Of a stretch of 64,000 nucleotides of DNA, positions 757-29,377 are shown in pieces. A program made the translations under genes and the position numbers. How positions within the stretch are numbered: position 1 is the first letter of the stretch; each line of letters begins with the position of its first letter. Under the pieces are notes generated by a model. The model worked only from the letters and a program-made list of their open reading frames with translations. It made no database searches and was not told the DNA's origin. This DNA comes from a virus, in the IMG/VR virus record IMGVR_UViG_3300030333_002570, positions 62,001 through 126,000 of that record; one strand, 5' to 3'.

Positions 757-1041
757 GTGACATATCAGGCTTTACCAGATGGATTATTCATTAATTCTAG
801 TCAAGTTGCTGGCCAAGGTATATTTACCAATAAAGCACTAGAGATAGGTACTGATCTAGGCATGTCACACCTTATAATTGGTGATGAGATCATTAGGACA
901 CCGTTAGGAGGGTTTATAAACCACTCTGACACTCCAAATTGTGAAAAATATATGATAGATAACCGTTATTATGTTCGAGTGATTAGATCGATTGTTCCTA
1001 TGGAAGAATTGTTTCTTAAGTACACCTTTTATACTGTATAA
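757..1041 (+). CDS. Small SET-domain protein
   Basis: A 94-residue protein starting at GTG; no in-frame ATG exists until codon 36. It has the core of a SET methyltransferase domain. GQGIFTNKALEIG near residue 19 matches the N-terminal GxGxFA strand, FINHSDTPNC near residue 53 matches the NHSxxPN pseudoknot motif, and EELFLKYTF near the C-terminus stands where the catalytic-tyrosine motif usually lies. SET proteins transfer methyl groups from S-adenosylmethionine to lysines. The domain is minimal, with no flanking pre/post-SET cysteines. The target is unknown; a phage structural or host protein is possible. Its TAA overlaps the ATG of gene 25 by 1 nt (TAATG), which favours translational coupling with the baseplate genes. 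Confidence 0.75.
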   Translation: MTYQALPDGLFINSSQVAGQGIFTNKALEIGTDLGMSHLIIGDEIIRTPLGGFINHSDTPNCEKYMIDNRYYVRVIRSIVPMEELFLKYTFYTV

Positions 1042-1460
1042 TGGCATTAAAAGAAGTTTCAGGAACTAATACTAATTTATCCCGTGCATTTAAAGATATT
1101 GCTATGGGATTTCGTCGTAATACAGTTACTAAGGATACTGGTATTGTTAAGAACGAAAATTCTATTAAGCAATCAATAAGGAATTTAATACTTACACAAA
1201 AAGGCGAGAGATTAATGCAACCTGATGTTGGGTGCGAAGTCTTTACCCTTTTATTTGAACCCTTAGACCCTATGACAGCTGACGCAGTTAGGGATGAGAT
1301 CATAAATACTATTAATCAATATGAGCCTAGAGTTAGTCTTATAGATGTTACTGTCAATACAGTTGAAATCTATAACAAATTCGATGTTACTGTAGAATAT
1401 CGCATTGTCGGACAACCTATTGTTGAAGAAGTCGATTTCGTATTAAAGAGACCTGAGTAA
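1041..1460 (+). CDS. 25: Baseplate wedge protein gp25 (GPW/gp25 family)
   Basis: A 139-residue protein of the GPW/gp25 family, close to the usual 130-140 residues. The conserved core is visible: NSIKQSIRNLILTQKGERL (about residues 36-54), then LLFEPLDPMTADAVRDEI and EPRVSLIDVTV. gp25 is part of the baseplate wedge around the central hub and is thought to nucleate the sheath near the baseplate by joining the gp6 ring. Start and stop codons overlap both neighbours (1 nt each), so genes for the SET protein, gp25 and gp6 are probably translated as a coupled set. Confidence 0.93.
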   Translation: MALKEVSGTNTNLSRAFKDIAMGFRRNTVTKDTGIVKNENSIKQSIRNLILTQKGERLMQPDVGCEVFTLLFEPLDPMTADAVRDEIINTINQYEPRVSLIDVTVNTVEIYNKFDVTVEYRIVGQPIVEEVDFVLKRPE

Positions 1461-3460
1461 TGCAACCAAATAATCTTACAGCATTAGATTTTACTGATGT
1501 AAAAGCTTCTATTAAGTCCTATTTACGGACCAGGGAGGAATTTACTGATTATGATTTTGATGGTGCAGCTTTATCATACTTAATAGATGTTTTAGCTTAT
1601 AATACGTACTATACCGCATTTAATGCCAATATGTCATTGAATGAGGCGTTTTTACCTTCCGCTACTGTTCGTGATAACGTAGTAAATATTGCAAAACTAC
1701 TAAATTATGTTCCACGTTCTATTATTGCATCACAAGCAACGGTAAATTTAACGATTCAAACTAAGCAAACGAGTAATTCTTATCCAAGTACTATTACTCT
1801 TGCGAAAGGACCAGTTCTTTCAGGTGGAAAATACTTCTTTAACGTTACTGCACCTACTACAGCATCTGTTGATTCTGTTACAGGAATAGCGAATTTAAAC
1901 AATCTTGTATGTAAGCAGGGATCTATTGTATCTTTCTCTTATATTGTCAATACTTTCCAACAACAAACTTATGTAATTCCTTCTCCTAACTGCGATATAA
2001 GCACTTTAACTGTTAGGGTAAAGGCAAACGAATCTTCCACAACATCAGATTTATATAATAGAGTAGATACTGTAACCAATCTTACCGCTACATCTAGGGT
2101 ATTCTTCCTTTCTGAAGGAGAGGATATGCGTTATGAGATTAAATTTGGTGATGATAGTATAGGGCGTGCGTTAAAAGATGGTGAAGTTGTAACTTTAGAG
2201 TACTTAGTAACGGATGGTTCTGAAGCAAATGATATTAATAGGCTCTCATTTATTGGTCAACTTAGCGATTCTTTAGAGGCATCATACACTTCTTCAGATG
2301 CTACGCTAACCGTAGTTAGTAAATCTCAACTTGGTGCGGATGCTGAGTCAGTTGAATCTATTAAATACAATGCTCCACGGTATTATTCTTCTCAATATAG
2401 AGCAGTTACCGCACAAGATTACGCATTAATTACTAAAAAAGTATATGATAATGCAGATTCTGTAGTTGCATATGGAGGAGATTCATTAACACCACCTATT
2501 TACGGAAAAGTATACATTGCTATTAGAACAAAAACGGGATCGTTACTTAATGATCAGACGAAAAAGACTATTGCTGCGTCACTTAGAAACTATGCAATGG
2601 CATCTATTGACCCTGTAGTCATTGATCCAGATAATATCTACATATATCCGAAAGTTTTTGTTACTTATGATACTGGATGCGGATCTGATACATCAACAAT
2701 TAAGACTAATGTATCAACAGCTATCACTAGTTGGGCTGGACAAACGCAGATAAACAATTTTAATTCAACCTTTAGATCACAAGAGTTTGAAAAGGCGGTT
2801 ACATTAGCAGATAGATGCGTAACTGATGTGTCACTTCAGACTACAATTTTAAGGTACATCAATCCAATTACCAATTCAACCAACACATATACTATTTCTA
2901 CGGGATCAGCACTTTATAATAGTGCTCCTAGTTCAACTGATTCTACAACAACTACGACAACTAAGGAACCTATTCTATTGTCTGGAACTTTTAGAACTTC
3001 AGATAGACCAGGTATTGATCAACAATTTGAGGATGATGGTTTTGGTAAATTAAAAACCTTCTATAATACTGGAACTAGAAAGGTTTACACTAATACTAGT
3101 GCGGGTACAGTAAATTATGACACTGGAACAATTGCTTTTGGACCAGTTAATATAATTGGATCTGGATCTAACGTATCTACAACTGCTGTTACAGTTACTG
3201 ATTCTACTACAGGTGTTGGTAGTGTCACGGATGCGTCACTTCTTCCTACTGGATTGCAAATTCCTGTTCAGTTTATCCCAGCAAACTCTAGCAGTATTCC
3301 TGCTTCTACACCAGGAACTATTATTAATATTGTTCTTCCAGAGATAACAGTTGCTGCAATTGGAACTACACCACCTCCCACTATACCACTAAATAGTTTG
3401 ACACCAACAATCTTTGATCAAACACCATCAACGGTTGCAGTCACATCCAGTTCATCATAA
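1460..3460 (+). CDS. 6: Baseplate wedge protein gp6 (baseplate J-like)
   Basis: A 666-residue protein, near T4 gp6 in length (about 660), directly following gene 25 with a 1-nt overlap (TAATG). The N-terminal part contains the typical LSYLIDVLAYNTYYTAFNAN and NEAFLPSATVRDNVVNIAK segments of cyanophage gp6. The middle resembles baseplate J-like proteins (YSSQYRAVTAQDYALITKK). gp6 dimers form the continuous ring that holds the wedges together. The last roughly 170 residues, starting at a Ser/Thr-rich stretch near residue 490, look like a low-complexity and beta-rich extension, probably exposed. Twelve nucleotides separate it from the giant gene. Confidence 0.9.
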   Translation: MQPNNLTALDFTDVKASIKSYLRTREEFTDYDFDGAALSYLIDVLAYNTYYTAFNANMSLNEAFLPSATVRDNVVNIAKLLNYVPRSIIASQATVNLTIQTKQTSNSYPSTITLAKGPVLSGGKYFFNVTAPTTASVDSVTGIANLNNLVCKQGSIVSFSYIVNTFQQQTYVIPSPNCDISTLTVRVKANESSTTSDLYNRVDTVTNLTATSRVFFLSEGEDMRYEIKFGDDSIGRALKDGEVVTLEYLVTDGSEANDINRLSFIGQLSDSLEASYTSSDATLTVVSKSQLGADAESVESIKYNAPRYYSSQYRAVTAQDYALITKKVYDNADSVVAYGGDSLTPPIYGKVYIAIRTKTGSLLNDQTKKTIAASLRNYAMASIDPVVIDPDNIYIYPKVFVTYDTGCGSDTSTIKTNVSTAITSWAGQTQINNFNSTFRSQEFEKAVTLADRCVTDVSLQTTILRYINPITNSTNTYTISTGSALYNSAPSSTDSTTTTTTKEPILLSGTFRTSDRPGIDQQFEDDGFGKLKTFYNTGTRKVYTNTSAGTVNYDTGTIAFGPVNIIGSGSNVSTTAVTVTDSTTGVGSVTDASLLPTGLQIPVQFIPANSSSIPASTPGTIINIVLPEITVAAIGTTPPPTIPLNSLTPTIFDQTPSTVAVTSSSS

Positions 3461-3472
3461 TTAGAGCATTAG

Positions 3473-6400
3473 ATGACAAGTATCAATAAGGTATCACAGG
3501 CAGTCGCTAGGCAGACTCCCGAATTTGTAGAGAACGATTATCCTCTCTTTACCAAATTTCTTGAATATTACTATCAATCTCAAGAAAAGACAGGTTTAGG
3601 TCAAAATATTCTTAATAACTTTCTTGGTTATTTGGATATTGATAAATTGGATATCAGTATATTAGATGGTGCAACAAAGGTAGTAGAAGCGATAAGTGCA
3701 ACGGATGATTCGATAGTTGTTGAAAGTATTGACCAGTTCCTTGATAATGATGGATCTGTTCTTATAGGTGATGAAGTAGTTTATTATGAAAAAGCGGTTC
3801 CTGGTCCTAATATTGCTCTAAGTCCAGGTGTTTCTTATGATCAAGTTAAATTAAAGTGGATTAACCTAGCAAGTCCTCTTTTAAGTTTTGATGATACTAC
3901 TAAGATATTCCCTTTAACATCTCAAGATAATCCTATTGCTCCACCTTCTGTACAACACTTGATTGTTAGTGTTTATGGTAAAGTTTTAATTCCTGGTACA
4001 GATTATAGTATTGAAGGAACAAATATTATATTTACGACTGCTCCTAGAACAAGAATTCCTGCTGATGATGCTTCTTCCACATATATTACCTATTTGAATG
4101 GTTTTAATGAGAATACAATCGTTCCTTTAGATAATATTTCTGGTAGTTTTGGTGAGAGTAAGAGACAATTTACTATTACTAGAAGTGGTGCAAGATATGA
4201 ACCTGTTGCTGATGAATATGTTCTTGCAGTTTATGATAATCGCCTATTAACTCCAAAAGTAGACTTTTTCCTTGATGGTGATCAGTTTATATTCTTAACT
4301 GCTCCATTAAACGGTAGATTCCTTTCATTGTATTCTATTGAAGCACCTATTCCTTCTTTTGGTGCTGGTGCAGTAGGTTATGCACGTATTAGTGACTCTG
4401 GAGAACTAACTGATATTTCTATCAGTAAAAATGGTTCTGGATATAAGTCTGAATATCCTCCACAAATTTCTATTAATACTGAAAATGGTAGTGGTGGTTC
4501 TGCAACTGCTCTTGTTAACGGTATTAAGTCAATATCTCTATTAGAAGGTGGTCAAGGTTATAGTAGTACCAACCCACCTGTAGTTCAAGTTCAAGCACCA
4601 ACTGCTCCTGGATCTACTGCTGCAACTGTAACTGCAACTGTAACTAATGGTGCTGTAAGTGACCTTAAAATCACTAATTCTGGTTCTGGATATACATTCA
4701 CACCTAGAATCACTTTCAAGCAACCTGGAGGTGCTGTATTAGGCGTTCCAACCATTACTAATGGACAAGTTACTGCTGTAAGTATTACTAATGCTGGTTT
4801 TGGATATACAACTGTTCCAACAATCTATATTGATGAACCAACTGGTACAAACCCAATTAAAGCAGCATTTCAGGCAGTTTTAAGTAGTCAAGGTGAAATT
4901 ACATCTATTAATATACTAAATGCTGGTCAAGGGTATACAACTACTCCTAGAATGGCAGTTATTGACCCAGTAGGTGCTCAAGTTCTTGAAACTACTGTTG
5001 ATAATCAAGGTAGAGTAATTAATATTGAATTATTAAGTGGTGGTGTAGGATATACTGATGTTCCTTCTGTTTATATTGTAGATAATAGAGTTGATGCTAC
5101 TGGTGGATATGCTGGTGGAACTGGTGCTGTAGCAACTGCATCAATCTTTAATGGACAAATTACAGATATTAATATTAGTGCTTTTGGTGGTGGATATAGT
5201 CAAACTTCTCCTCCTGTAGTTGTTATTCAAGCACCTCCTGCTGCTGAAGCATCTGCGGAGATTGGTTTGAATGAAGTTACTGGTTTTACAGTAAATCAAT
5301 CTGGTAGTGGGTATCAAAAGTCCCAATTAACTGGATGTGCTCGTGCTGCTTCGTCTATAACTTCATATACTGAAAGTGGTAACGCAGTATTTACAAATAA
5401 TACTAGTGCTGTTGCACATCCTGTAAATGAACCAATTAAGTGCTTAGATGCACTATTTGTTAAAAGATTACTCGATAAGTACACAGAACAGTATTTACCA
5501 GATGTTCCTACGTTAGATTATGCTAAAATTGACGTTAGAACAGCAATTAAGACAATTAAGGACTTTTATAGTTCTAAAGGAACATCATATAGTATTGGAT
5601 ACCTTTTTAAACTACTTTATGGTGAGACAGTAAGTATATCTTATCCTAAAGATCAAATTATCAAACCATCTGCTGCAACTTGGTCTATTGATACTATTTT
5701 GCGTGCTACTTTGGTTAGTGGTGATCCTACAAATATTCAAGATGGTCTTTTAACACAAGAAGCAGATATTGCTGACCTTAATGTTAAAGAAGCAAGTGCT
5801 CTTGTAGAAAATTATATTTCAATTAGAACTTCTGAAGTTACCATTTATGAATTGGTTCTTTCTGAAGAAACTATTGCTGGAACCTTTATTGTTCCATATA
5901 AGACAAAACTTGCAGAACCTTTAGGTAAAGAAGATAGTATTATTACAGTTGACTCTACTATTGGTTGGCCAGAAAGAAACGGTGAATTTATTATTGGAAG
6001 TTCAACTGATACTAGAGAAATTATTCAATATAAGGAAAAATCATTAAACCAGTTTATTGAGTGTACTAGATCAGTAAATGGTGTAGTTGAAGATTGGGAT
6101 TCTGCTACAGAGGTAAAATCAAACTTTAATGTTTATATTAATAAGGGAACTCCTCAAGAAGTAGTGATGAATATTGTTGGTATCGTTGATGCTCAACAAA
6201 CAACTCTTACTGATACTGGATCTTACTACTTACCAGGAGATAAATTAACAGTTTCTAAATTAGGTGGAACTGGAACTACTCCTGAACTTACAACTTGGTT
6301 GTATAATGTTAAAAAATTAATTAGTGTTACTAATGTAGCGTTTGGTGGTATTAATAACCAATCTGCAACTATTACTTGTGCTAATGATCACGGTCTTTTG

Positions 6401-9400
6401 GTAGGAGATCAGGTAACCATTTATGGTGCTAACCCAATTCTTTATAATGGAACATTCCTTGTAACATCTAGAGATAGTGATACTGTTTTCCAATATGCAC
6501 TACCTCAACCTGCAACAGTTATCCCACAGGGTAATATTCTTGTATCTATTGACCTTAATAAGGGTAAATCTACTAGTACTGCAATAAGCAATGCTATTAG
6601 TCCTTATACAACTAACGTTCAAAACTCATTCTTTAATGATAATTACGTTTATGTTGCTTCTACTGGTATTCCAAACTATAATATTGGTCCTTTCCCAGGA
6701 TCTGCTCTTCTTCCTGGTAACCAAAGAAAATTAACAAGATTCCCTAAAGTTCCGACTACTATATCAACTAAAGACCTTATTAGTTCTGGTCCTATTGGTA
6801 CATGGGTAAATGGTGTTTCTGTATGGTCATATAAGTCAAATTTAACTAAGACATTCGGTGCTGTAACAAGTATTGGTATTACAAATGCTGGTTCTGGATA
6901 TGATGCTGCATCTCCTCCTGCTATTACAATTGCTGGTGGAGGAGGTAGTGGTGCTACTGCTTCTGTAGTTGTTGATGGTTCTATTAGTGAAGTTACTGTA
7001 ACTGACGGTGGATCTGAATATACATCCTCACCATTGGTCTCTATAGTCGGTGGAGGAGGGTCTGGTGCTGCTGCAACCGCTATTATCACTAAAGGTGTTG
7101 TTTCACGTATTCTAATTAATTCTGGAGGATCTGGATACACCTCACAACCTCAAATTACTATTGTAGGTGGAGGTGGTTCTGGTGCTTCTGCTACTGCATC
7201 TGTTAGAGGTCCAATTAAGACTATTAATGTTACTTCTGGTGGTTCATCATATACATCTAATCCTACTGTTACTTTAAGTTCTGGTTCTGGTGCTGTTGCT
7301 CAAGCAATTGTACAGAATGGTCGTATTATATCGATTGCTATTATTTCAGCTGGATCTGGATATACTACTGCTCCTGAAATTACTATTCAAGGTGATGGTT
7401 TTGGTGCTGTTGCTAGAGCAACTATTGATGTTGATGGAGAAAATGCAGGTAGGGTTACTAATATTGAAATTATTAATAGAGGTATTGGATATCTTCAAGG
7501 AACCACTATTATTAATTTAAATTCAGTTGGATCTAGTGCATTATTCACTCCAAATGTATTTAAGTGGACTTATAACTTACAATCAACTGCAACTTTAGAT
7601 AGTGCAAAAGGTGGAGTATTTGAAGGATATAATAACCAGTATGGTGGTGAATATGCTCACCTTTCAAACCCACAAACATTAAGATATATTTTAGGTGACA
7701 ACCTTTTTGAATCAACTGGTGGTACAATATTAGAGAAAGAAGATTCTATTGTACACTCACCTATTATTGGTTGGGCGTTTGATGGTAACCCAATCTATGG
7801 TCCTTATGGATACTCTGATCCAACCGATCAAGGTTCTGTAATTACTAGATTGAGCACTTCATATAGAGTTAAAACTGCCCTTGTTTATGACGCTGCTACT
7901 AACCCATACCCAGTTAGGGCTGATGGTCCTTTACTCACAGATACGGATACTAATGGTACTCTATTATATCCAGCTGGTGCTTTCGTTGAAGATTATGAAT
8001 ATGTCTTTGGTTTAGGTGCATTAGATCAATATAATGGTCGTTTCTGTAAAACACCTGATTATCCAACTGGTAGATATTGCTATTTTGTCACTATTGACAA
8101 TACTACTGCTGGTAATCCTGAATTCCCTTATGTTTTAGGACCAAGTTTCAACTCTGTTGTAGATAAGTGGAATTTGAGTACATCTGCTGTTCAACAGAAT
8201 ATTCCTACTGGTGTTGTTCGTTATAGAGACCCATATGAAAATGTTGATATTGATGTAGATAGAGCACCTAACGTTTCTACTAATGCTTTAACAACTGAAG
8301 ATGGTGAAATACTATTATTTGAAGTAGAAGATGAAGATAGAAGTGGTGTTATAGATCAGGTAGAAATAGATGATCCAGATCAAATCTTTGAAGAATCACC
8401 TTTACAGTTATTTGATTACTTCCCTAAAGTAACATTTGATTCTAAAGTTGATATTGAAGTTGAAACTATTACTAAATTTGAAGATGCTTCTGTAACTGGA
8501 TTTACTATTGAAAACCCAGGTATTAACTATCAGGTTAATGACCGTTTAAACTTTGATAATGAAGGAACTGACGGTACTGGTGTTTCTGCTCGTGTTTCTA
8601 GAATTAAGGGTGAAGCAGTCGAAAGTTATACTTTTGAAAACATTAGTGGACAAAATTTCGGTGTTTTAAAGACTACAGAACCACATAATTTAGTAGTTGG
8701 AGATAGTGTTTTTGTAACTTATAATCCAATAATGAACAACACAAATAAAACTTTTGTTGTTCGTCAATTTAAAGGTATTGAAGAAATTGTTGTTAATCAA
8801 ACTGGTTCTGGTTATAATTCTGATATTCCTCCAACAATTACTATTGATAGTGCTACTGGAAGTGGTGGGGAATTACAAGCAGTTGTAACTTCTGTTGGAT
8901 CTATTGAAAATGTTAATATCTTAAATTCTGGTTCTGGATATACAACAAACCCTCGTGTTATACTTTCACATCCACAGGTCTTTAAGAAAGCAGATTACTA
9001 TGTTTCTAAGATTGATAATAATAATTACGTTAAAGTAAATGATGTTGTTGTTAATACAAACAAAGAAGTCTTTATTTGTGGTAAAACAAAAGATGCAAAT
9101 GGTAATAATGTTGGATTTGTTTCTAAATTATCTGCAACTGGTGTTAAAGAGTGGGAGAAAACTCTAGAACTTACTAGTGGACAACAGTACTGTGAATTTG
9201 AAAAACTTTATGTTGATGGAAATGATGTTTGGGTTGTTGGTAATAATAGACCAGAAAGCAATCTTTTAGATGCATATAACCCAGATGTTATTCTGGCAAA
9301 GTATACTCAAGCAGCAAATGGTCTTGCTGCTACATTGGCATTCCAGAAAGGATATGCTGGTATTTCAGGTTCTACTCGTGCTGATTCTGTAACTGCTATT

Positions 9401-12400
9401 ACTAAACTTTCTGATACCAGATTTGTTATTGGTGGTTATACAAATACAAACTCAACTGCTCCTTTTGATGGATATATTGCTCTAATTGATACAACTGGTA
9501 ACTTTGCAATTAAGAGAAAGGTTGCAGGTTCTAATACTTCAGAAAAAGTTACTGGTTTAGCAATTAATGCTGGTAATATTTACTTCTCATTAGAAAGTGC
9601 TGCAAGTCCTAATGCTACTGCTATTGATATTGGATTAGGTAAAGCAACAGTTGGTACTAGTACAATTACTATTGATTATGTTAAAACATATTCAAATACA
9701 GCATATTCATTCTTAGATTCTAGTCTTTGTATTGATGAATTTAATGAAGTTTATTTAACTGCAACTTGTAGACTTAAGGCAAATAATACAACTAAGAATA
9801 GTTTCTGGGTCGGTAAGACAGATATTTCTGGTAATTTAATTTGGAATTATCGTTATCAAATACCTAATGAAAGTGGAACTGAATATGATGTTCAAACAGT
9901 AAACAAAACTGTAATTGATGTTTTTGGTGATCTTAATGTTGGTGTTACCTTAACAAGTGGAATTAATAGTCTGAAGAGTGCAAGATCCTTTAAGATTGGT
10001 TATAGTGGTAATTTAAAAGAACATTCAGCAAATGTCTTTAATATTAATAATATTGAAGGTCTTACTATTCATTCATTAGATGCTGATAATTCTGGTGATG
10101 TCCATTTATTCGGTCAATCTGCTTGGAATAGAAATGAATTTATATTACCATTTACAGGTGGAGCAACAACAGATACAACTGGTCACTATACTCCAACTAT
10201 AGTAACTACAGGAGGTTCATTAAGTTATGAAAATACTGTCCAAGATGGATATGCCAAAATACTCGGATCTCAAACTGCAAGTCCAACTGTCTGGGAAAAC
10301 GCTTACATTAAGTTCGCAGCTGCGGACCTTGGGACTAAACTTGCTGAAGATTGGACTATAGAATTCTTTCTCTATAGAGATAGCACAAATACTAACGTAT
10401 TCAGTCAGAATGAAGAGACTTTATTCTCTATTGGTGATGCAACAGTTACTACTGGTGGTCTTTGGTGTTATATTAATCAAAGTGATGGAAAATTAGGATT
10501 TAGAGCAACTAATAGTACTACTGCATTAAATGCAGGATCTGCTTCATTATCTACACAATCTTCTTTATTCCCACTTAATACTTGGATAACAGTTGGTGTT
10601 AAGAAAGAAGGGGATGTCTTTAGCACATATGTTAATGGTATTGCTACAGGTAGCTGGACTATTGCTAGTACTTCATTAGGAAATAAGGATTTAATTATTG
10701 GTAATATCTCTGGTAGAAACGGAACTCTTAATAACTGGCGTTCAAATGAACAGGGACAATATCATATTGATAATTTACGTTTAAGAAATAGAGCAGTTAC
10801 ACCATCTGTTCCTTCTGATATTACTGTTGTTCCTGCTACTGGTCAATTCCCAATTGGATATAATTGGCAAGATGATGCTTGGTTTACTACTAACCTAAAC
10901 AAATTTGATTATATTGATTACACTGGTATTGGTATTAAAGTTGACAAAAATGCTGATGCATCAAGAATTGGCACTTATACAGAAAGAACTAACACTAAAT
11001 TAGGATTTGTTAGAACAGATGTAATAGGAACTACTATTACTCCTACTACAATGACTGTTGTAACAACAGGATTTGCATTAGCAGATGCTGGATTCCAAGG
11101 TTTAGACTTTGACGATGCTACTACAACAATGTCTCAAGATACTGAGACTATGACTTATACTCAGGATGTATGGAGTTCTAGAACTGCTACTGTTCCATCT
11201 CCAGGTTCTCAGAAATTATCTGTATCTGCTGTAGTTAAAGACAAGTATTACTTTAAAGTAACGAATACTGTTAAGATTGATAATGTTCAAGAACTTACTT
11301 TAAATCAGGCATTTAATTTTACCACAGGAACAAAATTAGTACTTAATAATGATGCAGGTACTTTTGTTAACAGTGGATATATTATTAGACAGGATGTTCC
11401 TAATAAGAAAATATATCTTGCTATTAATAATAATGCTTGGTCAAATGATTTAAATACAGGTAATTTAATTACAGAACAATTCAGTGAGCAGAGCACTTTT
11501 GGAATTGTCGGACCTATTCCTGCTGATATTAATGAAATATCAGGATATACGTTTGCTCAGGTTAATAATACAACTCCTGGTACATTTGATATTGACCTAG
11601 ACGACTATAACCTAGATGGCACTTATAATGCTGGTGGTAGTCAAGACCTCGATAGTTATGCTAAATTTAAACCTTATTCTGATGATGATTATTCAATAAG
11701 AATTGATGAAGTTACTACTGGATCACCATATATTGTTGGATCTGTTATTAATATCAATAGTGGTAATATTTCATATAATGCTGCTTATTCTACTGCTCAA
11801 ATAACTGGATTAACTGCTGTTACAAAGATAACTTTAATTGCTAATCTAACTAAGATTATGCAAGTTAGTGCAGTGTCTAATAGTGACGAAGTTTATGTAA
11901 TTACTGGAACAAGTCATTACCTAGATGCAGGTGATATGATCTATGTTGATGGTAACCCAACGGAAAATAGTCTTGATGAATATGATGGTGCATTTGCTGT
12001 TAATAGTGTTGTAAGTCCATTAGAATTTACATATAAACTAAAACAGGTTGCTACAACTTCTCCTGCTACAACTGCAGGTAATGTAAGTATATTTGTTAAA
12101 TCTCCTGTATTGAAGATGTATTATGGTCACCAGTACATCTTTGACATGAGTCATAGTTCATTACTTGGTGGAAACTTATCATTCTCTAAAGATAACTTAT
12201 TTAAACTAGAGTATTCATTTAACTCAATTGAAAGGACTGGAACTCCTGGTGTTAGTGGAGAAGGTGTTCCTACACCTATAGTTAAGTTAAAAGTTGATGA
12301 AAATATTTTAACTAATATATCATACTACTTTGATCCTTCAAGAATTGGAGATGATTCTCCAATTGATCCTAGCAGTTACTTAGATGTTACTGATTCTCCA

Positions 12401-15400
12401 TATAAAGGTACTTTCTCTATTAGTTCTGTTGCTGGTGCAACAATTACTCGTGGTGCTGATGTATTTAAATTCCCTCTATTAAATGAACCAGAGGGTAATG
12501 CTGAAGTATCTCAAACAACTTATAGCACAAGTTCTGTTAAAGCAGTTGGATCTATTTCTGATGTTCGTATTGTTAACTCTGGTGGATTCTATACTAGACT
12601 ACCAATTGTAAGCAGTATTACTTCAACAAGACAAATTGAAAGAGTTGCTATTGAGGATCCAGGAACTGAATATGCTGTAGGTGTGTATACTGGTGTTCCT
12701 ATTGCTGGAAATGGTGAAGGTGGATTTGTAGAAATTACTGTTGCTGATGGATTAGATAGTGAAGGTGTAACTATTCCTGGTCAAATTAACTCTGTTGTAG
12801 TTACATCACCTGGTAAAAATTATACTACAGCAACTATTGATATTGAATCAATACCTGGTATTCTCGGTGCAGGATTAACTGGATCTGGTGCTATATTAAA
12901 TGTTGTTATTCCTAATGCAGGTACTCAAGCATCTATATTTACCAAAGCAGATAAAGTTGGTAAGATTAAGAAACTTAAGAATAATAACTTTGGTTATGAT
13001 TATCCTCATGACTATACTTTACGTCCTGAGATTTCATTCCCAATTAACGCACAGTTAACATCTACAAGTATACTTTCTAGTATTACCGTTACTAATCCAG
13101 GTTCAGGATATTCACAAGCACCTGCTGTTGTAATTACAGGTGGTGGTGGATCTGGAGCAACTGCTGAAGCAACAATTAAGAATGGTAGATTAGATCAAAT
13201 TATAGTTAAGGATCCAGGTGCTGGTTATTCATCAACACCAACTGTTTCACTTAAATCTTCATTTAACTATGTTGTTAACCTTGACTTAGGTCTACTACAA
13301 TTTGCTTTCCCACACGGTATTACAAATGGTGCTGCTATAACTTTAAATGTAGTTGATACTGGAGATGGTGCTGATTTCCCACTTGCTGCTGGTGCTGTTG
13401 GTCGTTTAAATGGATCTACAACTTATTATGCTATTTCTGGTGCAGCAAATTCATTAGAAAATGATCAATTAAAAATTGCACTTACTGCTGCTAACGCTGA
13501 ATTGGGTGATGCTCTTTCCTTTGTTAACGCTGGTGAAGGTCGTCAACAGGTATTAACTGAATCATTTGGTGGTAGTGCTACTGCTAATGTTATTACTTCT
13601 ACCTTCTTAGAAGGAGAACTTGTTTATCAAGGTGAATCATTAGATACTGCAACTGCTACTGGATATGTTTCTACTAACCAAGGTTGGCAGATCGGACCTA
13701 GAATTCTTAAGATTGTTGATTATACGGGAACATTCTCAGAGACCCAAAAAGTTACGGGTGTAATTTCTAAGTCTTCAGGTACTATTAGTGATTTGAATAT
13801 TGCTCGTGGTGTTCTTGAGATTGGTTCTATTACCAAAACTACTGGTCAGTTTATCGATGATGTTGGTAAACCATCCGAAATTATTCAGAAGATTCAAGAC
13901 TCTTACTATTATCAAGACTTCTCCTATGCTATTAAGTCTGCTGTTTCTATTAGTGAGTGGAAGGAAATTCTTATTAAGAACGTTCATCCTGCATCATTTA
14001 AGGTATTTGGTGAGTTAAATCTATCTGATTATGGATTTATTCCAAATAAAGAGACTGATTTCCAACTTACTAAGTCTGTTGAACTTGCAAGAGAAGCAAT
14101 AGTTCCAAATATTCAAAGTTTTGCTCTTGTAGAACCAATTTATTCAGAATTTAATAACACTGAAGTTCTATTCCGTCAAAAGAGATTAACTTCTTCTGAG
14201 AACATTCTAACTTCTGTTGTACAAAGAATTGATGATATTTCTGATCAATTTGATGGTGAAAAGATTGCATTCCCTCTAACAGTTGATGGTAACACTGTTG
14301 TTGCTAACGCTAATCAGTTAATGATTGTTTTGAATGGTATTGTTCAGAACCCTGGAACTGCATTTGAGATTCAAGGTGATTCTATCGTCTTTAGTGAACC
14401 ACCACAACCACCTGCAAGTGTTAAGTATGTTAATATTGAAATATCACAAATTTCAATTGTAAGTAATACATTTACTAACCAAAGTGGTATTTTCCCAAAT
14501 CCAGGTAATATTTTAACTGGAACAAACTCTGGTGCTAAATTAACTGTTACTTCTGTTGTTGGTGATACTATATTTGGTTTTATTACAGAAGGAACATTTA
14601 TTGCTGCAGAAAACGTAACTGTTAGTGCAACTGGATTTAGTGCTAACCTTGATGTTCAAAGTAGTGTAAGTAATATTGGATTATTCCAGTACGGTGAACA
14701 AGTTAAGAACTTAACTAATGATACTGCTAAGGTTGAGCAAATCAACCTTCAGAGAGGTTTGGAGAATGCATTAGCAAAATTACGTTATACAGTTGGTCCT
14801 TCTACTCTTCAAATAGAAGTAGTTCCTCCAAATAGCACTACAGACGGTCCTGTTGCTACTGATACATTTACGGTTGATCAAAATTATCAACTTGGATCTG
14901 AAGTTGTTAAAGTTACTAATATTGTTGACGGTAATGATTCTACAACATTAACAGTTTCCAGAGCACAAAATGGAACTATTGCATCACAACATCAAGAAGA
15001 TTTCCCAATTTACGGAACTCTATTAACGGTGACAACTTCTCTTACTTTAAGTAAGACAGCTGGAACTTATAAGTCTACTCCTGGTCTATTTGATATTCAG
15101 TTAAATGATATCATTATTGGTGCTAAGTCTGGTGTTGTTGCTCGTGTTACACAAACAAGTGCATATCAAGATCCTACAACTCAAGAGTTTATAAGTCAGG
15201 TTAATATTTCTGAAGGTTCTTCCTTCTTTGGATTGTTGATGAACAGAATTACTTCTCAGACATATCCAAACGTTGTTCTTGATGATATTTCTAAATCTCA
15301 AGTTAGTGTTGTTCAGTACACTGATAATTCTACTGCTTTCAACTCACAGTTCCCTGCTAATGAACAGATTAATAACATCGTAGTTCCTTACGATAATCTA

Positions 15401-18400
15401 GTTGGTGGTCCTATTCAAGAGAATGAAACTATCAGAAATTACAAACTTAAGTATGGTGGAAATACTGGTGAATTTATTGCTGGAGAAAGTGCTAGAGCAA
15501 GAAAACTTTCTTATGTTAATCCTAAAGGTGATGGATTCTTTGCTACTGGTCAGGTAATTAGAACTCAAGATACAAAAGCAGAAGTTCTTGGATTTAATCA
15601 GGCAGATCAAGTGATTTACCTTGGTAAAGTTGGTAGAACTAAAGCGAATGGTCAAGATTATCATATCCCATCATTCTCTAATAGTGCTCAACTCGATACT
15701 ACAGTTAAGTACTATGGAACTGCTTCACTACAATTAGTAGCAGCAACTAATGATTATGTTACTATTCCTTCTTCAAGTGAATTTGCTTTTGGAACAGGTG
15801 CATTTACTATAGATCTAATGTTACGTCCTGCAGCAAGTTCTTTAAGTGGAACTGCTACTATACTTGACATGAGAGCATCTGCTGCAAATGAAGTTGCTGG
15901 TAGACTTTACTTAGAAGCTGGTCAAGTTCGTTGGAATGTTAGTAATGCTGATGTAGTTACTTCTGGTGCAACAACTCTTAGTGCAGATACTTGGGTTTTA
16001 ATATCCATTATGAAGTCTTCTACTACAACTAAGATTTTATTAAATGGAGTTGAAGCAGGTACTGCAACAGATAATACAACTTATATTGCAAAACCAATTA
16101 GATTAGGTTCTGATTATGCTGGTACTAATAGTTTTACTGGATTCATTGATGAGTTAAGAGTATCTAATACTAACCGTCATCAAACAATTCCATTTACTCC
16201 TCAGAATGGTATTTGGCAAGGTGATGCTCAAGCTAAGTTATTATTACACTTTGATGGTGCTGATGCTCAAACATGGGTTGATGATTGGTCTGGTGCAGAA
16301 GGATTTACTGCTGGTGAAGACTTTAATAATGATGCTATAATATCTTCAACTCGTTCTTCTAATGCTACTCCTGGTGGATTTACTGGTAACACACAAAGAT
16401 ATTATGATGCTGCTGATTTAATTCTTCTTAATAAGGAATTCCTTGCTCAAGAAGTTGTTTATATTCTAAAAGAAAGACATCCTCATCATACTGTTAAGGG
16501 TAGTGAAGTTGATTGTGAAGATGATGTTCGTGATGTATTAGATGCTGTTATTGATGACCTTCGTAATGGAACAAATAATAAGATTTGGGATGCATCTTCT
16601 TACTATGTTGATAGAACATCATCACCTATTGTATTGAAGTTTGTTTCTAATGAAGTTGATGAAGTAGTTTACACTTATGATAAACTTGAGGAAATGCTCA
16701 AGTATATTGTTAATAATACTCTTTGGGATGTTCAAGGTGATCATGGATTAGTACAAAAGACAGATTCTACTATTACAGAATCTAGTGGATTAACTACACA
16801 AACTTTCCAACCTACTGGAGCATCATATGATGCAGCAAGTGGTTATATGGTTTTAACTGCTTCTGGACACGGTATGAGATCAGAGAGAGCAATTACTGCA
16901 ACAGATGCTGCTTATACTGCAACAACAGGTATTTTACAATTAACAGTTGCTACCTCTACATTTAGTGTTTCTACTGCAACTTATGACCATACAACTGGTG
17001 TTATGGTAATAACAATTGGTTCTCATAGTTTGACAACCAATGATAATATTAGAATTGCTACTGGTGGAATCACATTTAGTTGTGACAATGGTGGAGTTAG
17101 TACTGGTGCATATCCTCGTTCATCTGGTGCTAATACAGAAAGTGGTGCTGACTATGCATACGATAGATGGCTTCCAATTCTTGCTGTAGGTGCAACAACT
17201 ATTACTGTTAATGTTAACGGTGGTAAGGGTGCTATTAGTCATGCCTTTGCACACACATATTCAACTTCTTCTGCAGGATGTATTACTGCTGGTCATGGTC
17301 TTAATGATGGAGATAGAATCAAGTTTGATCCTAATTCTCTTGTAATGAATTGCACCTCTGATGGTAATACAGTTAATCAGAGTTATCCAAGACCTGATGA
17401 TCCTGCTGCTCAAGGTTGGTTAGAAGTTACAGCAAATACTGGTACTACATTTGATGTAAATGTTGGTAAATCACCTACTGTGAATTATACAGCAACTGCT
17501 GGAACTTATAATGCTGATACTGGTTTCTTAACCATGAATATTGGTCAACATAATCTAAGAACTGGTAGAAAATATACTGCAACTAATGCTGAATATACTG
17601 CAGCTTCAGGTGTAATGAAGATTACTATTGGTGATAGTATTGATGTTTATGATGCAAGTTATACTGCTAAAAATGGTCTATTAAAATTAAATATTGGTCA
17701 TCATAACTTTAAAAAAGGTAGTTTAGTTAAGATTGCTCCTAACTCACTATTCTTTACTTGTAGTATGGATGATTATCAGTCAGTTCATGCATATCCAAGA
17801 TCAAGTGATCCTGTTTATAATGATGATATTGAAATTATTGATATAACTGATGAAACTATTACTGTTGATGTAGGAACTTCTCCAGAAGTTTCATATACAC
17901 CTACTGGTGCAACTTATGACATCAATACAGGTGATATGGTACTTACTATTGGTTCTCATAGTTTAGCAGTTGGAACTAGCATAAGACTTTTAGATGAATC
18001 TATATCATTTAGTTGTAGTTTTGGTAGTGGTGGTACTAGTGCATATCCTCGTCCTTTAGTTGATACTGCAAATATAAGCACAGCATCTTACAATCCTCAG
18101 ACTGGAATCTTCTCAGTAACAACTACTGCTGCACATAACTTAACTGGTCCTACTGCTAAAAATGTTACTGATGCTACTTACAATCCATCTACAGGTATTT
18201 TACAGTTAGAATCTGGAGGTCATAACTTTGCTGTTGGTGATAAGATAAGAATTAAGGATGATTCTTTAGTATTTACTTGCACTAAAGATGGAAATGCAAC
18301 AAACCATACATATCCAAGATCAACTGATCCTGTAAGTGGACAATGGTTAACTATTGTTGCTAGAGCAACTAATACTTTTGATGTTCAGGTTGGTGCTTCT

Positions 18401-21400
18401 AAGATTGGTTTAAATGAATTTGCTCATACATGGGCTGGTGGTACTGCAACTAATGCAGTTGAGAAAGCAAATGATGTAATTAAATTTGCTGATAATTCAA
18501 TGACATTTACTTGTGCATTGGATGGTGGTGCAACACAACATCAATATCCAAGGACAACTGATCCTGTAAGTGATAAGTGGTTGATTGTTGAAAATGTTGG
18601 ATCAACTACTTTTGATGTTCAAGTTTTAGATAACGCTCCTTCTACTAATACATCTGCACATACATTTGTTAGTGCAACAACTGGTGCTGTTAAGATTAAG
18701 AGAGATCCTGCTCAAGGAACTGCTCTTCCAATCACTGCTGTAGGTGCTACAACTATTACGGTTAATGTTACACCTATTACTTCTTATAGTTCATCATCTC
18801 ATACATTCCAATCTGCATCTCAAGGTGCTGTTAAGGTTGGTGGTGATTACACTCATAAATTTGTAGATGCTGCTTCTGGTGCTGTTATTCCTCATCACGG
18901 ATTCTATATTGGTGATAGAATAATGTTTGAGGAAGGATCATTAGTCTTTACTTGTGGTATGGATAGTGATGCTACTAGACATGCATATCCAAGAGAAAGT
19001 GATCCATTCTACAATAAATGGTTACCAATTAGTAGTGTAACTACAAATACCTTTAATGTTGATGTTGGATCAACTACTAATACAACATTTACTCCAACTG
19101 GAGGATCCTACGATGGAACCACAGGTAAGTTAAGTATTACTATTGGTGCTAATACACTTGAAGTTGGTCAGCATGTTAAGATTGCTCCTAACGGAATTTC
19201 ATTCACATGTGCAATGGATGGTGGTCAATCTGTTAAGTCCTATCCAAGAACAACTGACCCAACATATAATCAAACTCTTCCAATTCTTGAAAGAAGTGAT
19301 ACTGCTATTACTGTTGATGTTGGTAAATCACCTTATGTTTACTTTGATGTTTCTGCTGCTACCTACAACCCAACATCGGGTGTCATGGTACTTACAATCG
19401 GAGATCATGGATTAGCTGCTAATACAAGTATCAGACTTAAAGATAATTCATTAACCTTTAGTTGTGATCAAGGTGGAACTGTTGGAACTGGAACTTATCC
19501 TAGATCTGGTGGTGCAGACTACGTTTATCAGAAAGCAATTAATATTGATTCTGTAACTGATACTACAATCACAATTAATGTTAACGGTGGTCAAGGTGCT
19601 ATTACTAATACCAATGCTCATACATTCGTAAGTGCTATACCTGGTGCAGTTATTGCTGGTGGTGCTTGGGCTCATACTTATTCTACTGCTGCAGCAAATG
19701 CAGTTTCAGTTGGTGGTAACTATACTCATACGTTTAAGTCTGCTTCTCCTAATGGTATAACAAGAGCTGGTGAAACACTTAGAATTATTAAAGATGGTAT
19801 ATCATTTAAGTGTTCACAAGATGGATATCAAACAATTCATTCATATCCTAGAACAGATGATCCTGGATATAATACTTCTCTACCAATCTATAATGATGGT
19901 ACTGCTTATACTGCATCTAATGCAGCATATAATGCATCAACTGGAGAAATGGTCATTACTATTAATGGACATGGATTTACAACCAGTGATCAAATTAGAA
20001 TTGAAAATAATTCATTAACATTCACTTGTGTTAAAGATAGTAATACATCTACCCATAGTTATCCTAGAGATAATGATCCATTCGTTCGTAGATGGTTAAG
20101 AATTACTGCTGTTACTGAAAATACATTTACTGTAAATGTAGGTAAAGCATCTTCCTCAACTCAACAGTTCTCACATACATTTGCTTCTGCTACTAAAAAT
20201 GGTATTGTTAAACGTGATAATACTGTTACTGTTAACGTTGGTGCTATTCCAACTAAGAGTTTCACACCGACTGCATCAACATATAATCCTTCAACTGGTG
20301 CTTTAGCATTAACTATTGGATCACATAGTCTACCAGCTCCAACCACACATACACCAACTGATGTTGCGTACAATCCAACAACAGGTATTATGACTTTGAC
20401 TATTAATGGTCATAACTTCTCTAATGGTGAAAAGATCAAGATTGCTGATGGTGGATTGAAGTTAAGTTGTGCATTTGGTGGTGCTTCTGGTGCTGCTGCA
20501 CAGAAAGATTATCCACGTTCAACTGACCCAATTAGCGGTAAGTGGATTCCTATTAAGAATGTAACTACAAATACTTTTGATGTCCAAGTTCTAGATGTAA
20601 TACCTTCTACAAACACTGATGCTCATTCATTTGTATCTGCTGTTACTGGATGTATTAGTAAAGCAAATGCAACAGTTAAAATTGCTGAAAATTCATTAGT
20701 TTATAAGTGTGCTGAAGATAGTAATGCTACAGAACATGCTTATCCAAGAAGCAATGTTGCTACTCATACAGCTGGACCAGGGACAACTTATAATCCTGTT
20801 ACAGGTGTTCTGAAGCTTAGTGTTCCTACAGAAAGTCATACACCTTCTACAGCAACATATAATCCTTCAACGGGTGAGATGGTTCTAACTCTTGATTCAA
20901 CTTCTGGAGCATTTAACGTTTCTAATGCAACTTATAACACCTCTACAGGTGATATGGTACTTACCATTGGATCTCATAGTTTAACTACAGCAAATAGAAT
21001 TAAAATTAAAGAAGGATCTTTGAAGTTTGCATGTAACTTTGGTAATGATAATTATCAAACTCCAAAAGCATATCCAAGAGCTTCAGGTGCTAATACTACT
21101 AATGGTGCTGACTATGCATTTAATACATTCCTACCAATTACCGCAGCTGATGCTACAACTATTACTGTCAATGTTAATGGTGGTCAAGGTTCTATCAGTA
21201 ACAATAATCAGCATAATTTCTTAAGTGCTGATGCTGGTGCAGTTATTGTTGGTCATGGATTATCTGTTGGTGATAGAATTAAGATTGCTGATGAATCATT
21301 AACCTTCAGTTGTGATCAAGGTGGAACTGTTGGAAATGGTTCATATCCTAGATCATCTAATGACTATGTTTATCGTAAGTGGATTAGAATTAGAGCAGTA

Positions 21401-24400
21401 ACTGGAAATACTATTACTGTTAATGTTAACGGTGGACAAGGTGCTATTACTAATACCAATGCTCATACATTCGTAAGTGCTACTGCTAATTGTATAACCT
21501 CTGGTCATGGAATGACTAATGGTACTCCAATTAAGATAACTGATAGTTCACTATCATTCAGTTGTACTGAAGGTGAAGGTGGTACATATGCATATCCAAG
21601 AGCAACTGACCCAGTTTCTAAGAGATGGTTATTCATCAATAATGTAACTGATTCTTCATTCGATGTTCAAGTTTTAGATACAATTCCTTCAACTAATGTA
21701 ACTTCACATACATGGATTAGTGCTGTTGCTGATGGTATTGTTGAAGGTGATCCTATTGTTGGACAAGCAGTTCCTGTTGAATCTGTAACTTCTACATCTA
21801 TTACAATTAATCCTCTTGATGGTGATGTTCCAACTAACACATCTGCACATACATTTGAGAAGTTAAACACATATCAATTCCAACCATCTGCTATTACCTA
21901 CACTCCAACAACAGGTGTAATGTCAATAACATCTACATCTCATAAGATTGAAGAAGGTGATAAGATATTCATTAAAGATAATTCATTATCATTTAAGTGT
22001 AATATGGGTGATGATGCTGGTCTTCATACTTATCCTCGTGAGACAGATCCAGTATCTAATAAGTGGATTACTGCTACTAACGTAACAGCTAATACATTTG
22101 ATGTTAATGTTGGTTCAACACCTAATGTCTTCTATACTCCTTCGGATGCAACATATAATCCAACTACGGGTATAATGAGACTTACTATTGGTAACCATGA
22201 TCTTAGACCTGGTACTAGTGTTAAGTTAGGACAAGAATCATTAACATTTAAGTGTGCTCACGATTCTTATGCAACTAATCATTCATATCCAAGAAATACA
22301 ATATTAAGTCATACTCCAACTGATGCTGATTATCATCCTGATACAGGTATCATGACATTGACTGTCAATAATCATAAGATGGGTGATGGTGATTGGGTTA
22401 AGATTGCTGATGGTGCTGTAACATTTAAATGCACATATGGTGCTGGTATTCATACTTGGACTGGTGGAACTGCAACTGGTGCTGTTCAAGTTCAAGAAGC
22501 AGGTTTAGGAAACTTTGATGTTACTGCTGCTGACTATAATCCATTGACAGGTGATATGGAATTAACAGTCGGATCTCATTCTATTACAACTGGTAATACC
22601 GTTAAAATTGTTGCTAACTCATTAACCTTCAGTTGTGATCTTGATAATAATGCAACGAACCACACTTATCCTCGTGCAACTGACCCTGCATATGATACTG
22701 CTCTTGCAATATCTGCTGTAACTGGTACAACTATAACAGTTAATGTTGGTGTAAGTTCACCTGGAACTGCATATCCTCGTGCTTCTGATCCAGTTAGCGG
22801 TAAGTGGATTAAGGTCTTTAACGTAACTACAAATACATTTGACGTTCAACTTTTAGATATTGTTCCATCAACTAATACAAGTATTCATACATTTGTTTCT
22901 GCTGTTACTAATGGAATTAGTCAGAAGAAAGATAGTGCTTATGATTCTCCAGTTGAAATTGTTGATACTACTGCTACAACTATAGATCTTAAAGTTGTTA
23001 GAAAATTACCTTCTACAAATACAACAAATCACATCTTTGTGTCTGCTGCATCTAACGCAGTTATCTCAGGTGGTGCATATACACATACCTTTGTTACAGC
23101 AGACGCAGATGCTATTACTAGATCTATAGTACAAACTGGTGGTAATTATAATCATGTATTTGCATCAGCATTAACAGATGGTGTAGTTACTGGTGGTAAC
23201 TATGTTCATACTTTTGTATCTGCTGCAACTAATGGTATTAAGTGTGCTGGTGATGCAGTTTATCTTGCTCCTGGATCTCTTACATTTACATGTTCACAGG
23301 ATGGAAATGATAGACCTACTGCATATCCTAGAACTACAGATCCTTCTTATAATCAATTATTAGAGATTAAAGATGTAACTTCTGATACATTTACTATTGA
23401 TGTAGGTGCAGCTGCAGAGAAAGATCAATATACTCATTCATGGGTAAGTTCTTCTCAAGGAGCTGTTAAGAAATCTGATTACAATCTCAAAGATTGTACT
23501 GATGTTCATACTACAGTCGGTAACTTAATTGATATACTTACAGATACATTAACAAATGCTAATGTATCACCTACACCTGTTGATCATTTAGCAAGTGTTA
23601 CTAAGGTTCTACCACCATATAAGTTCTACGGTGCAACCGTTGACGCATATAATGATACTCCATTCCCTGTATCATATCATAGTGCTGCCAATGATCTTAT
23701 AGTTACTAATCAAATTGATGAAGATACTCAGTATAGATTCCGTGATGCTGCATACTTAATTCGTGCAAATAGTGGTGTTATCGTTGATAAAGCAGCATAT
23801 GACATGCTACAACGTTATCCAGATCTTGCTATTAGTATGCCAAGAAATGCTAATGGAACATCTACAGATGGTACTGTTCGTTGTAAGCAAGATTTACTTG
23901 AGTTTGTTAGTGCAATTGCTACTGACCTTGAAAATGGTGGTAATTTAAATACCATGAAAGCTGCTAAGTTCTATATTAGTCTTTCTGGTGGATTACAACA
24001 TATTCGTTTACAGGTATTCCAATCTGTTTATGCACATGATCGTTTAGGTGTATATCTTAAGCAAGCAGTTACTGGTGATTTAACATATGATAATACCGAT
24101 AATATCGTTGTTCGTGACTGGGGTATTACTGATAATAGTTCTAGTGGTAATTGTGCTAATGTTCAAACTGCTATTGACACATTAATTACATCAATTAATG
24201 ATTTGATCGCACCTACAGATAGTGACCATGCACTTGCTGCAGATAGATTATACTTCAATAAAGATTTCCTTGCTGAAGAAATTACTGGTCTTACAACTGC
24301 ATATTTCACTTATACATTAAACGGTGTTAATTACTCAGCACTTACATATCCTGGATCTACTGGAGAGGCTACATGTCAGAGAGATATTAAGTTAATTTTA

Positions 24401-28150: not shown

Positions 28151-29377
28151 ATGGCTAAACAACTATTAAGTCTTGGTACTAATGCTAACGACAACACTGG
28201 AGATACTCTCCGTGCTGGCGGTGATAAAGTTAATGACAATTTTAATGAATTATATACTGCTCTAGGTAATGGTACAGATTTAACCATTAGTCTCGCTTCT
28301 GCAGGTAGTGGTCAGGTATTGCGATATAATGGAACAAACTTTGTTGCGTCAGATTATTTAAATTTAACTTCTGCTTTAGATGTTAATAGTAATTCAATTA
28401 TATCATCATCTAATGGGAATATTAATATTGCTCCCAATGGAACTGGCAATGTAACTATTGGTAATGGAAGTATTACTAATACTTTCAATGGAACTGATGG
28501 AACAATAGATTTTCCAACGAAAGTAAAATATAAAAATGAATTTAGCACACTTGCTAGTGCTCCTGCTGCTGCGACATACACAGGATATTTCTTTACAGTT
28601 GATGGTGATGACAACCCATATGTAAATATTAATATTACTGCTGGTGGTGCAGGTGATGTGCAAGCAAAAGTTTTAACACAGTATTCTAGTGTTGATCTTT
28701 TAAAAGATATTGATATTACTACTGCAGCACCTACTGAAGGACAAGTCCTAAAGTGGAGTGTTAGTGGGGGTAAATTTGTTCCTGGTGATGATGCTGCTGG
28801 TGCTAGTCAACAAAACCTATGGGCAACTGTTGGTGGTGATACTGGTACAACAAGTGCTAATACTACAACAGATACATTAACTATTGCTGGTGGAACTAAT
28901 ATTACAACAGCAGTATCTGGTGATACACTCACAGTAAACTTTGATGGAACTCTTGTTACAACTTTAGCATCCTTAACAGATGTTGATGTTTCTAGTGTTG
29001 TTCAAGGTGATTCATTATTCTGGAATGGAACAAATTGGACTAAAACAAGAAGTCCTATTACATGGTGGGAATTAGGTTCTAACGGAAGCACAGACTATAC
29101 TATTGATGGACCTGGGTTTGCTTCTGCAACTAATGATCCAACTCTTTATGTAAGTAGAGGTTTTACCTATGCTTTTGACAATACTACAATGGGTGGTGCT
29201 CATCCTTTTAGAATACAGAGCACACAGGGTTTAACTGGAACTCCATATACTGCTGGTCAATCTGGTAGTGGAACTAGTGTTCTCTATTGGACTGTCCCTA
29301 TGGATGCTCCATCAACACTGTATTATCAGTGTACTCTCCATGCTGCGATGCAAGGACAAATTAACGTTGTAAGTTGA
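28151..29377 (+). CDS. Virion structural protein with C-terminal cupredoxin-like domain
   Basis: A 408-residue protein. The N-terminus (TNANDNTGDTLRAGGDKVND, residues 9-28, then NFNELYTALG) is a module common at the start of cyanophage tail and fibre proteins. The middle is beta-rich and Thr/Asn-rich, with an NGTGNVTIGNGSI-type fibre segment. The last 95 residues are cupredoxin-like: a DPTLYVSRGFTYAFDN strand pair, His351 in AHPFRIQS, and a ligand loop YYQCTLHAAMQG with Cys394, His397 and Met400. That is the ligand order of a type-1 copper site, although Met follows His by three residues rather than the five of plastocyanin. A structural role, with or without copper, is inferred. Just 5 nt separate it from the next gene. 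Confidence 0.7.
   Translation: MAKQLLSLGTNANDNTGDTLRAGGDKVNDNFNELYTALGNGTDLTISLASAGSGQVLRYNGTNFVASDYLNLTSALDVNSNSIISSSNGNINIAPNGTGNVTIGNGSITNTFNGTDGTIDFPTKVKYKNEFSTLASAPAAATYTGYFFTVDGDDNPYVNINITAGGAGDVQAKVLTQYSSVDLLKDIDITTAAPTEGQVLKWSVSGGKFVPGDDAAGASQQNLWATVGGDTGTTSANTTTDTLTIAGGTNITTAVSGDTLTVNFDGTLVTTLASLTDVDVSSVVQGDSLFWNGTNWTKTRSPITWWELGSNGSTDYTIDGPGFASATNDPTLYVSRGFTYAFDNTTMGGAHPFRIQSTQGLTGTPYTAGQSGSGTSVLYWTVPMDAPSTLYYQCTLHAAMQGQINVVS

Follow-up and report, generated by a model that had tools for sequence, protein, structure and literature searches.

A giant gp7-type baseplate protein with its wedge core in three pieces

The window analysed here, a 64,000-nucleotide stretch comprising bases 62001-126000 of the 130-kb IMG/VR virus fragment IMGVR_UViG_3300030333_002570, covers a T4-type structural region in which one unbroken open reading frame (ORF; window 3473-28126, + strand) encodes a protein of 8,217 amino acids (aa) and ~877 kDa. 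Is this giant, which occupies the gp7 position directly 3' of gp6, with gp8 downstream past two extra genes, a baseplate wedge protein or an unrelated fibre? A preliminary description, made from the sequence alone, had read two separated segments (here A and B) as apparent parts of one ordinary marine-phage baseplate protein and had proposed a wedge protein with a single huge internal insertion and a 4,700-residue C-terminal extension. Judged by its sequence, the giant is an ordinary gp7, with a ~280-residue core in three pieces (residues 1-56, 656-828 and 3447-3521) that comprises the N-terminal helices, the KGT helix, a beta wing and the HPAG helix, and with additions of ~600 and ~2,600 aa internally and 4,700 aa at the C-terminus. 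Taken as a whole, it is very probably a gp7 wedge initiator with a split core whose inserts form arms. The layout is as follows (HMM, hidden Markov model).

3473..28126, + strand: giant gp7 homologue (baseplate wedge initiator); single ORF, position after gp25/gp6, PHROG 701, Pfam PF23786, mass
3473..3640, + strand: core piece N (residues 1-56), a set of N-terminal helices placed by prediction in a three-chain core bundle; six-short-form HMM, core HMM states 2-60
3641..5437, + strand: insertion 1 (residues 57-655, ~600 aa), GSGY repeats; gap comparison, blastp
5438..5956, + strand: core piece A and beta 'wing' (residues 656-828; SSKGT...LFKLLY helix); A HMM, core HMM, blastp to short forms
5957..13810, + strand: insertion 2 (residues 829-3446, ~2,620 aa); A-B gap comparison with short forms
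13811..14035, + strand: core piece B (residues 3447-3521; QDSYYYQDFSYAI...VHPASFKVFGEL); B HMM, core HMM
14036..28123, + strand: C-terminal extension (residues 3522-8217, ~4,700 aa), second LamG and long repeat arrays; PF13385, blastp repeat self-similarity

Core pieces in the giant and in short gp7 forms

The motifs on which the preliminary description relied are in place, SSKGTSYSIGYLFKLLY at residues 700-716 (window 5570-5620), YYYQDFSYAIKSAV at residues 3478-3491 (window 13904-13945) and VHPASFKVFGEL at residues 3504-3515 (window 13982-14017). HMMs for N, A and B, built from six short-form proteins with the window sequence left out, each matched the giant once, with 29.9 bits (E 1.8e-11), 62.3 bits (E 1.7e-21) and 59.2 bits (E 1.3e-20) respectively, and none of the three matched any other window protein tested. 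Among 42 shuffled or reversed controls the best A score was 1.1 bits and the best B score 2.0 bits, with all N, A and B control scores at or below 2.0 bits. So defined, A spans residues 666-745 and B residues 3473-3518, a distance of 2,725 aa as against 88 aa in the 449-aa minimal form encoded by viral contig L008, which has the shortest A-B linker (~88 aa). A 284-state core profile of the minimal form, made from 38 short-form sequences, is covered with almost no break by three segments of the giant, with states 2-60 on residues 2-60, states 61-192 on residues 664-808 and states 178-276 on residues 3410-3518. Residues 1-60 thus also belong to the core, so that a ~600-aa insertion precedes A, and of the earlier proposal the wedge identity and the C-terminal extension stood but the single insertion did not, as there are two internal sites.

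The Pfam family PF23786 (Baseplate_wedge) reached 39.9 bits in three stretches across residues 1-3833, above its curated cut-off of 27 bits, and the isolated pieces N, A and B scored 17-20 bits each, in profile order 5-53, 177-221 and 235-280. TIGR02242, the phage tail domain that the record of phiM12 names, did not match the pieces of the giant; short forms scored 15-26 bits against a cut-off of 51.85, a resemblance that on these scores is distant only. We found no evidence against the gp7 identity of the giant.

Across 50,697 phage records, tblastn with segment A (~160 aa) returned 506 records and with segment B plus downstream sequence (211 aa) 441 records, mostly cyanophages, the nearest of which keep the same spacing of ~8.35 kb. 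In the C-terminal extension a short module similar to 'IVLNGIVQNPGTAFEI' is repeated (giant residues ~3618-3660, ~7935-7985 and ~8010-8070), which probably explains the second places found with the B query. Both segments were also present in a small gene directly after gp6 in the distant phages BUCT-ZZ01 (607 aa), Ochrobactrum phage OC (vB_OspM_OC; 631 aa), pf16 (523 aa), Moby (503 aa), Melnitz-2 (896 aa) and phiM12 (1,007 aa), the phiM12 B segment being placed by HMM coordinates since the MAFFT alignment misplaced it. The adjacency of gp6 and gp7 is kept in all these phages, and L008 has the same order as judged by ORF length. In blastp the six short forms matched A and B of the giant in order, five of them with E 5e-7 to 2e-18 and Moby with a B match that reached only 0.009.

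Among 802 ORFs and named proteins, A and B occurred together in 219, in every case in one ORF, in order and in single copy, and no complete ORF held only A or only B, except that of T4, where the B match falls below the cut. Segments matching different proteins were sought but not seen: A and B fall on one homologue, with a short linker, in gp7-position short forms, as the preliminary description had expected. A reading of the giant as an unrelated fibre, or as two fused genes, with A and B as promiscuous motifs, draws on its fibre-like domain content and nothing more; N, A and B co-occur in order, once, in one ORF at the gp7 position, controls were negative, and fold and sequence both lead to T4 gp7 (below), so that we regard it as almost certainly wrong. 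The co-occurrence of A and B in short forms led us to reject gene fusion and an unrelated fibre alike, and the earlier denial of a fibre thus holds. An assembly chimera was likewise rejected, since a spacing of 2,600-2,900 aa is common to 45 proteins in all, including those of the isolates P-SSM4 and P-RSM6.

Relation to T4 gp7 and the size series

Searched against the PDB, the 38-sequence short-form profile found only T4-type gp7 at significance (E 1.1e-6 and 1e-5), spanning residues 648-758 of T4 gp7, with a weak second stretch at 865-890, and residues 653-839 of a Klebsiella phage gp7; the profile was needed, as phmmer with one short form found nothing in the PDB. The structure predicted for the L008 minimal form placed T4-type gp7 chains at ranks 1-3 in Foldseek (E 7e-9 to 2e-6), and in a VIA fold comparison its residues 82-265 align to T4 722-887 with Z 10.3. 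Furthermore, tblastn of the minimal core reached the gp7 of Acj9 over 96% of the query (E 1e-3). The global confidence of the minimal-form model is low (predicted local distance difference test, pLDDT, 64.5; predicted template modelling score, pTM, 0.29), though the wing exceeds 90, and by sequence alone T4 matches B only weakly, at 7.2 bits, though the fold alignment does cover B. The PDB profile search and the fold establish homology between the core and residues ~648-890 of T4 gp7, so that the 'ordinary baseplate protein' can now be named.

T4 gp7 (PDB 5IV5, 5HX2) and the gp7 proteins of Straboviridae resemble the giant in core order and in genome position after gp6. In T4, however, the core is uninterrupted near the C-terminus and the extra mass lies before N (1-647) and after B (897-1032), whereas the giant, eight times longer, grows between N and A, between A and B and after B. 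The homologues grade from ~400 to >8,000 aa with growth at these same sites. The N-A gap falls into classes of ~0-11 aa (1-4 aa in minimal forms), ~100-165 aa (~100 aa in most other cyanophages) and 609-620 aa; the A-B gap into classes of 88, 190-250, 320-430, 795, 1,550-1,800, 2,150-2,350 and 2,725-2,803 aa; and the length after B ranges from 17 to >4,800 aa. Short T4-type forms from sea and soil (Ochrobactrum OC, BUCT-ZZ01, Melnitz-2 and Mosig, the last of 874 aa) have N, A and B as in the giant, with A-B gaps mostly of 88-430 aa (795 in phiM12) versus 2,725, and a Pfam scan of the six short forms found neither YHYH nor LamG. Cyanophage gp7s with the architecture of the giant are those of P-SSM4 (7,312 aa; 72-79% identical to the giant over residues 1-3735), P-RSM6 (8,573), S-SZBM1 (6,619), P-SSM2 (5,195) and S-PM2 (3,048), with C-terminal extensions of variable length.

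Domain content is graded as well. GSGY repeats are already present, in one to three copies, in the A-B gap of intermediate forms; by blastp, block 1211-1716 of the giant (repeats and YHYH) occurs in nearly all cyanophage gp7s, and the segment 1845-2444, which holds the propeller and LamG 1, is confined to the largest class, the smaller cyanophage classes having ~100 aa at N-A and 1,550-2,350 aa at A-B without that segment. In the core tree, which is unrooted, a branch with 86/92 support divides the large forms from the small, and the size classes cluster (6 changes versus 16.8 in shuffles). Because sizes are graded at the same sites and the domain blocks are nested, growth would have been stepwise, and stepwise accretion fits these comparisons better than the single internal event of the preliminary description. 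The reverse course, in which a large ancestor lost material at these sites to give the short forms, gains some room from the unrooted tree and the limited support of its large/small branch. In T4-type gp7, however, N, A and B are contiguous and the sites are empty, small forms come from phages of many hosts, and the blocks are nested, YHYH being near-universal among cyanophage forms and the propeller with LamG restricted to the largest; we judge such an ancestry highly improbable.

Weak extra copies of the wing motif were seen in the N-A insert of the Mosig (L262 8542-11166) and Melnitz-2 (L006 10189-12879) gp7s and, in Mosig, also before B. Such wing-like matches recur in several inserts at 5-11 bits, with no control matches, and duplication of the beta wing of the core may have contributed to the growth of the inserts.

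Neither the split core nor the size series was found described in the open-access literature. One essential protein thus offers a natural series from ~400 to >8,000 residues with fixed insertion sites, in which the gain of host-recognition modules by contractile tails becomes testable by comparison and by cryo-electron microscopy, and a large share of unassigned structural mass in very abundant ocean viruses is now assigned.

Proposed role of the inserted mass

The domains which the preliminary description had listed between A and B are all real, namely the GSGY repeats, YHYH, a beta-propeller (as a predicted fold) and LamG. Those with boundaries, together with a second LamG in the C-terminal extension, are listed here.

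7565..8104, + strand: YHYH domain in insertion 2 (residues 1365-1544); PF14240, E 3.1e-28
9005..10129, + strand: beta-propeller in insertion 2 (residues 1845-2219); AlphaFold2 (AF2) model, VIA fold comparison
10298..10804, + strand: LamG/concanavalin-like domain 1 in insertion 2 (residues 2276-2444); PF13385, E 6.7e-7
15746..16177, + strand: LamG/concanavalin-like domain 2 in the C-terminal extension (residues 4092-4235); PF13385, E 1.9e-15

The AF2 model of the propeller and LamG segment has a pLDDT of 83.8, and its residues 1-375 match propellers, with VIA Z 36.6 to CylK and 25-28 to many others; the predicted beta-propeller is a shared fold, and the fold match alone shows no function.

Proteins of gp7 type combine with two gp6-type chains to make the wedge, and they hold the receptor-binding parts (PMC10457771, PMC6300606, PMC8894135). 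By extension from the T4, XM1 and type VI secretion system (T6SS) structures, the three core pieces of the giant would fold into one unit and associate with two gp6 chains, (gp6)2-gp7 would form the core bundle and trifurcation in each of the six wedges, and each insertion would be a looped arm that leaves the wedge at one loop and comes back to it there. The insert ends in minimal forms are separated by only ~1-4 residues (insert 1) and ~20-90 residues (insert 2). Six giant copies would add ~5 MDa to the baseplate.

What the arms do is less firm. Contact-sensing and glycan work is carried out by separate proteins in T4, XM1 and T6SS and would here be attached in cis: a peripheral baseplate could be made up of the arms, with their GSGY repeats, YHYH, beta-propeller and LamG, and the C-terminal extension, binding or breaking down glycans of the host surface and signalling contact to the wedge, a function to which we give slightly less than an even chance. 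The alternative that the insertions of a split-core gp7 are structural, serving as scaffold, spacer or fibre-attachment arms with no direct receptor binding or enzymatic action, is a real though not a favoured possibility. Much of the inserted mass consists of repeat arrays, GSGY-type repeats seemingly occur also in wedge, gp8 and neck proteins (PHROG cross-matches), and in XM1 and T6SS the loops or C-terminus of the gp7-like protein hold receptor-binding-type proteins, the protein itself not being host-binding (PMC10457771, PMC6300606). Two LamG domains, YHYH, which has been proposed as a metal-dependent hydrolase (PMC7824862), and the propeller are, however, of types common in carbohydrate-active proteins, and the S-PM2 gp7 mutated in host coevolution (PMC9910659). 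This last protein, S-PM2d081 (L254 8607-17753), was called exceptionally large and hypothetical in a study of host-phage chemostats in which it acquired early and late mutations (PMC9910659); it is gp7 here, with N, A and B at 1-51, 158-243 and 1823-1868. Three considerations count against a glycan-directed function of the arms: the propeller and LamG may be purely structural; the original and passaged S-PM2 records, as deposited, are identical in S-PM2d081; and no structure of such a virion was found in the literature searched.

T4-type phages possess an assembly protease, which speaks for a further alternative, that the giant is cut during assembly, so that the virion would hold core and arms as individual chains. 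Virion evidence comes from S-SZBM1_208 (6,619 aa), which carries the same three pieces at 5-62, 670-813 and 3515-3582 and was detected in virions by mass spectrometry with 71 peptides, a result that speaks for the main gp7 reading; its coverage of 13.5% is compatible with cleavage (PMC9146016). No cleavage site was found, none having been looked for, and the core pieces flanking insertion 2 would still be made as one chain; we consider cleavage unlikely.

Returning to the gp7 with looped arms, marine T4-type phages may, though somewhat less likely than not, have made the wedge initiator into a cis-encoded peripheral baseplate. Adhesin and enzyme domains would accrue stepwise at the three growth sites of a gp7 hub, and one polypeptide, wedge and host-sensing arms together, would stand in for what T4 and XM1 divide among spike, pin and short-fibre proteins. 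The gp7 equivalents named in the literature, XM1 gp17, P2 gpI and T6SS TssG, are small and bind adhesins in trans. Extra mass protruding from a wedge protein has been described for domain IV (residues 278-643) of AlgoCIS Alg11, and the gp7-like part of AlgoCIS Alg12 has been termed an evolutionary hotspot (PMC8894135); AlgoCIS has one ~370-residue domain, against two inserts totalling ~3,200 residues and 4,700 C-terminal residues in the giant.

VrlC, naming and neighbouring genes

The order of genes in the window is gp25, gp6, the giant, gp9/10-like, a 1,633-aa wedge protein, gp8 and VrlC, followed by neck, sheath and tube genes.

1041..1460, + strand: gp25-like baseplate wedge subunit; PHROG 261, E 3.8e-62
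1460..3460, + strand: gp6-like baseplate wedge subunit (gp7 partner in T4); PHROG 219, E 5e-222
28151..29377, + strand: gp9/gp10-like protein (wedge-fibre connector); PF07880 T4_gp9_10_N, E 2.7e-9, PHROG 677
34323..35855, + strand: gp8 baseplate wedge subunit; PF09215 Phage-Gp8, E 4.8e-17
35859..43073, + strand: VrlC-type protein (DUF4815), separate gene; PF16075, E 3.4e-64, no N/A/B HMM match

Cyano- and pelagimyophages have been stated to lack T4 gp7 and to have VrlC in its place (PMC7029224). Since the window and the pelagiphage Mosig each contain gp7 as well as VrlC, this claim of absence and replacement is contradicted and the published statement corrected, the essential gene being there in disguise. 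The window VrlC (35859-43073) had no N, A or B match; its matches to the core profile were weak and wing-like only (E 0.0076 and 0.015). The name gp7 is not new: GenBank already calls the giant gp7 in P-SSM4, P-HM2 and P-SSM2. One study lists gp7 with the structural genes of the non-cyanophage core (PMC3037559). The GenBank gp7 homologues bear four T4 gene-cluster numbers (107, 397, 507 and 826), gp6 always bearing 106, and these differing numbers explain the apparent absence or patchiness of gp7.

Weak matches to the gp7 beta wing (E 0.006-0.015) were seen in VrlC (residues 490-549 and 1897-1956) and in the neck protein at 52267-53193 (residues 212-285); a small beta domain common to VrlC, the neck protein and the gp7 wing is possible. 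By PHROG and Pfam cross-matches, repeat blocks of the giant seemingly recur in structural genes of the same operon, namely the 1,633-aa wedge protein (29383-34284, with a YHYH match), gp8 and the gp14-like neck protein (52267-53193), as if one repeat family were spreading among tail genes. Auxiliary genes in or beside the structural region encode a 2-oxoglutarate-Fe(II) (2OG-Fe(II)) oxygenase (window 106-732, phrog_81) and a purM-like synthetase (window 56758-57681, phrog_1207). The tail sheath protein (749 aa, window 60228-62477) covers 454 PHROG sheath-profile positions along its full length, which suggests that the sheath too may contain inserted material.

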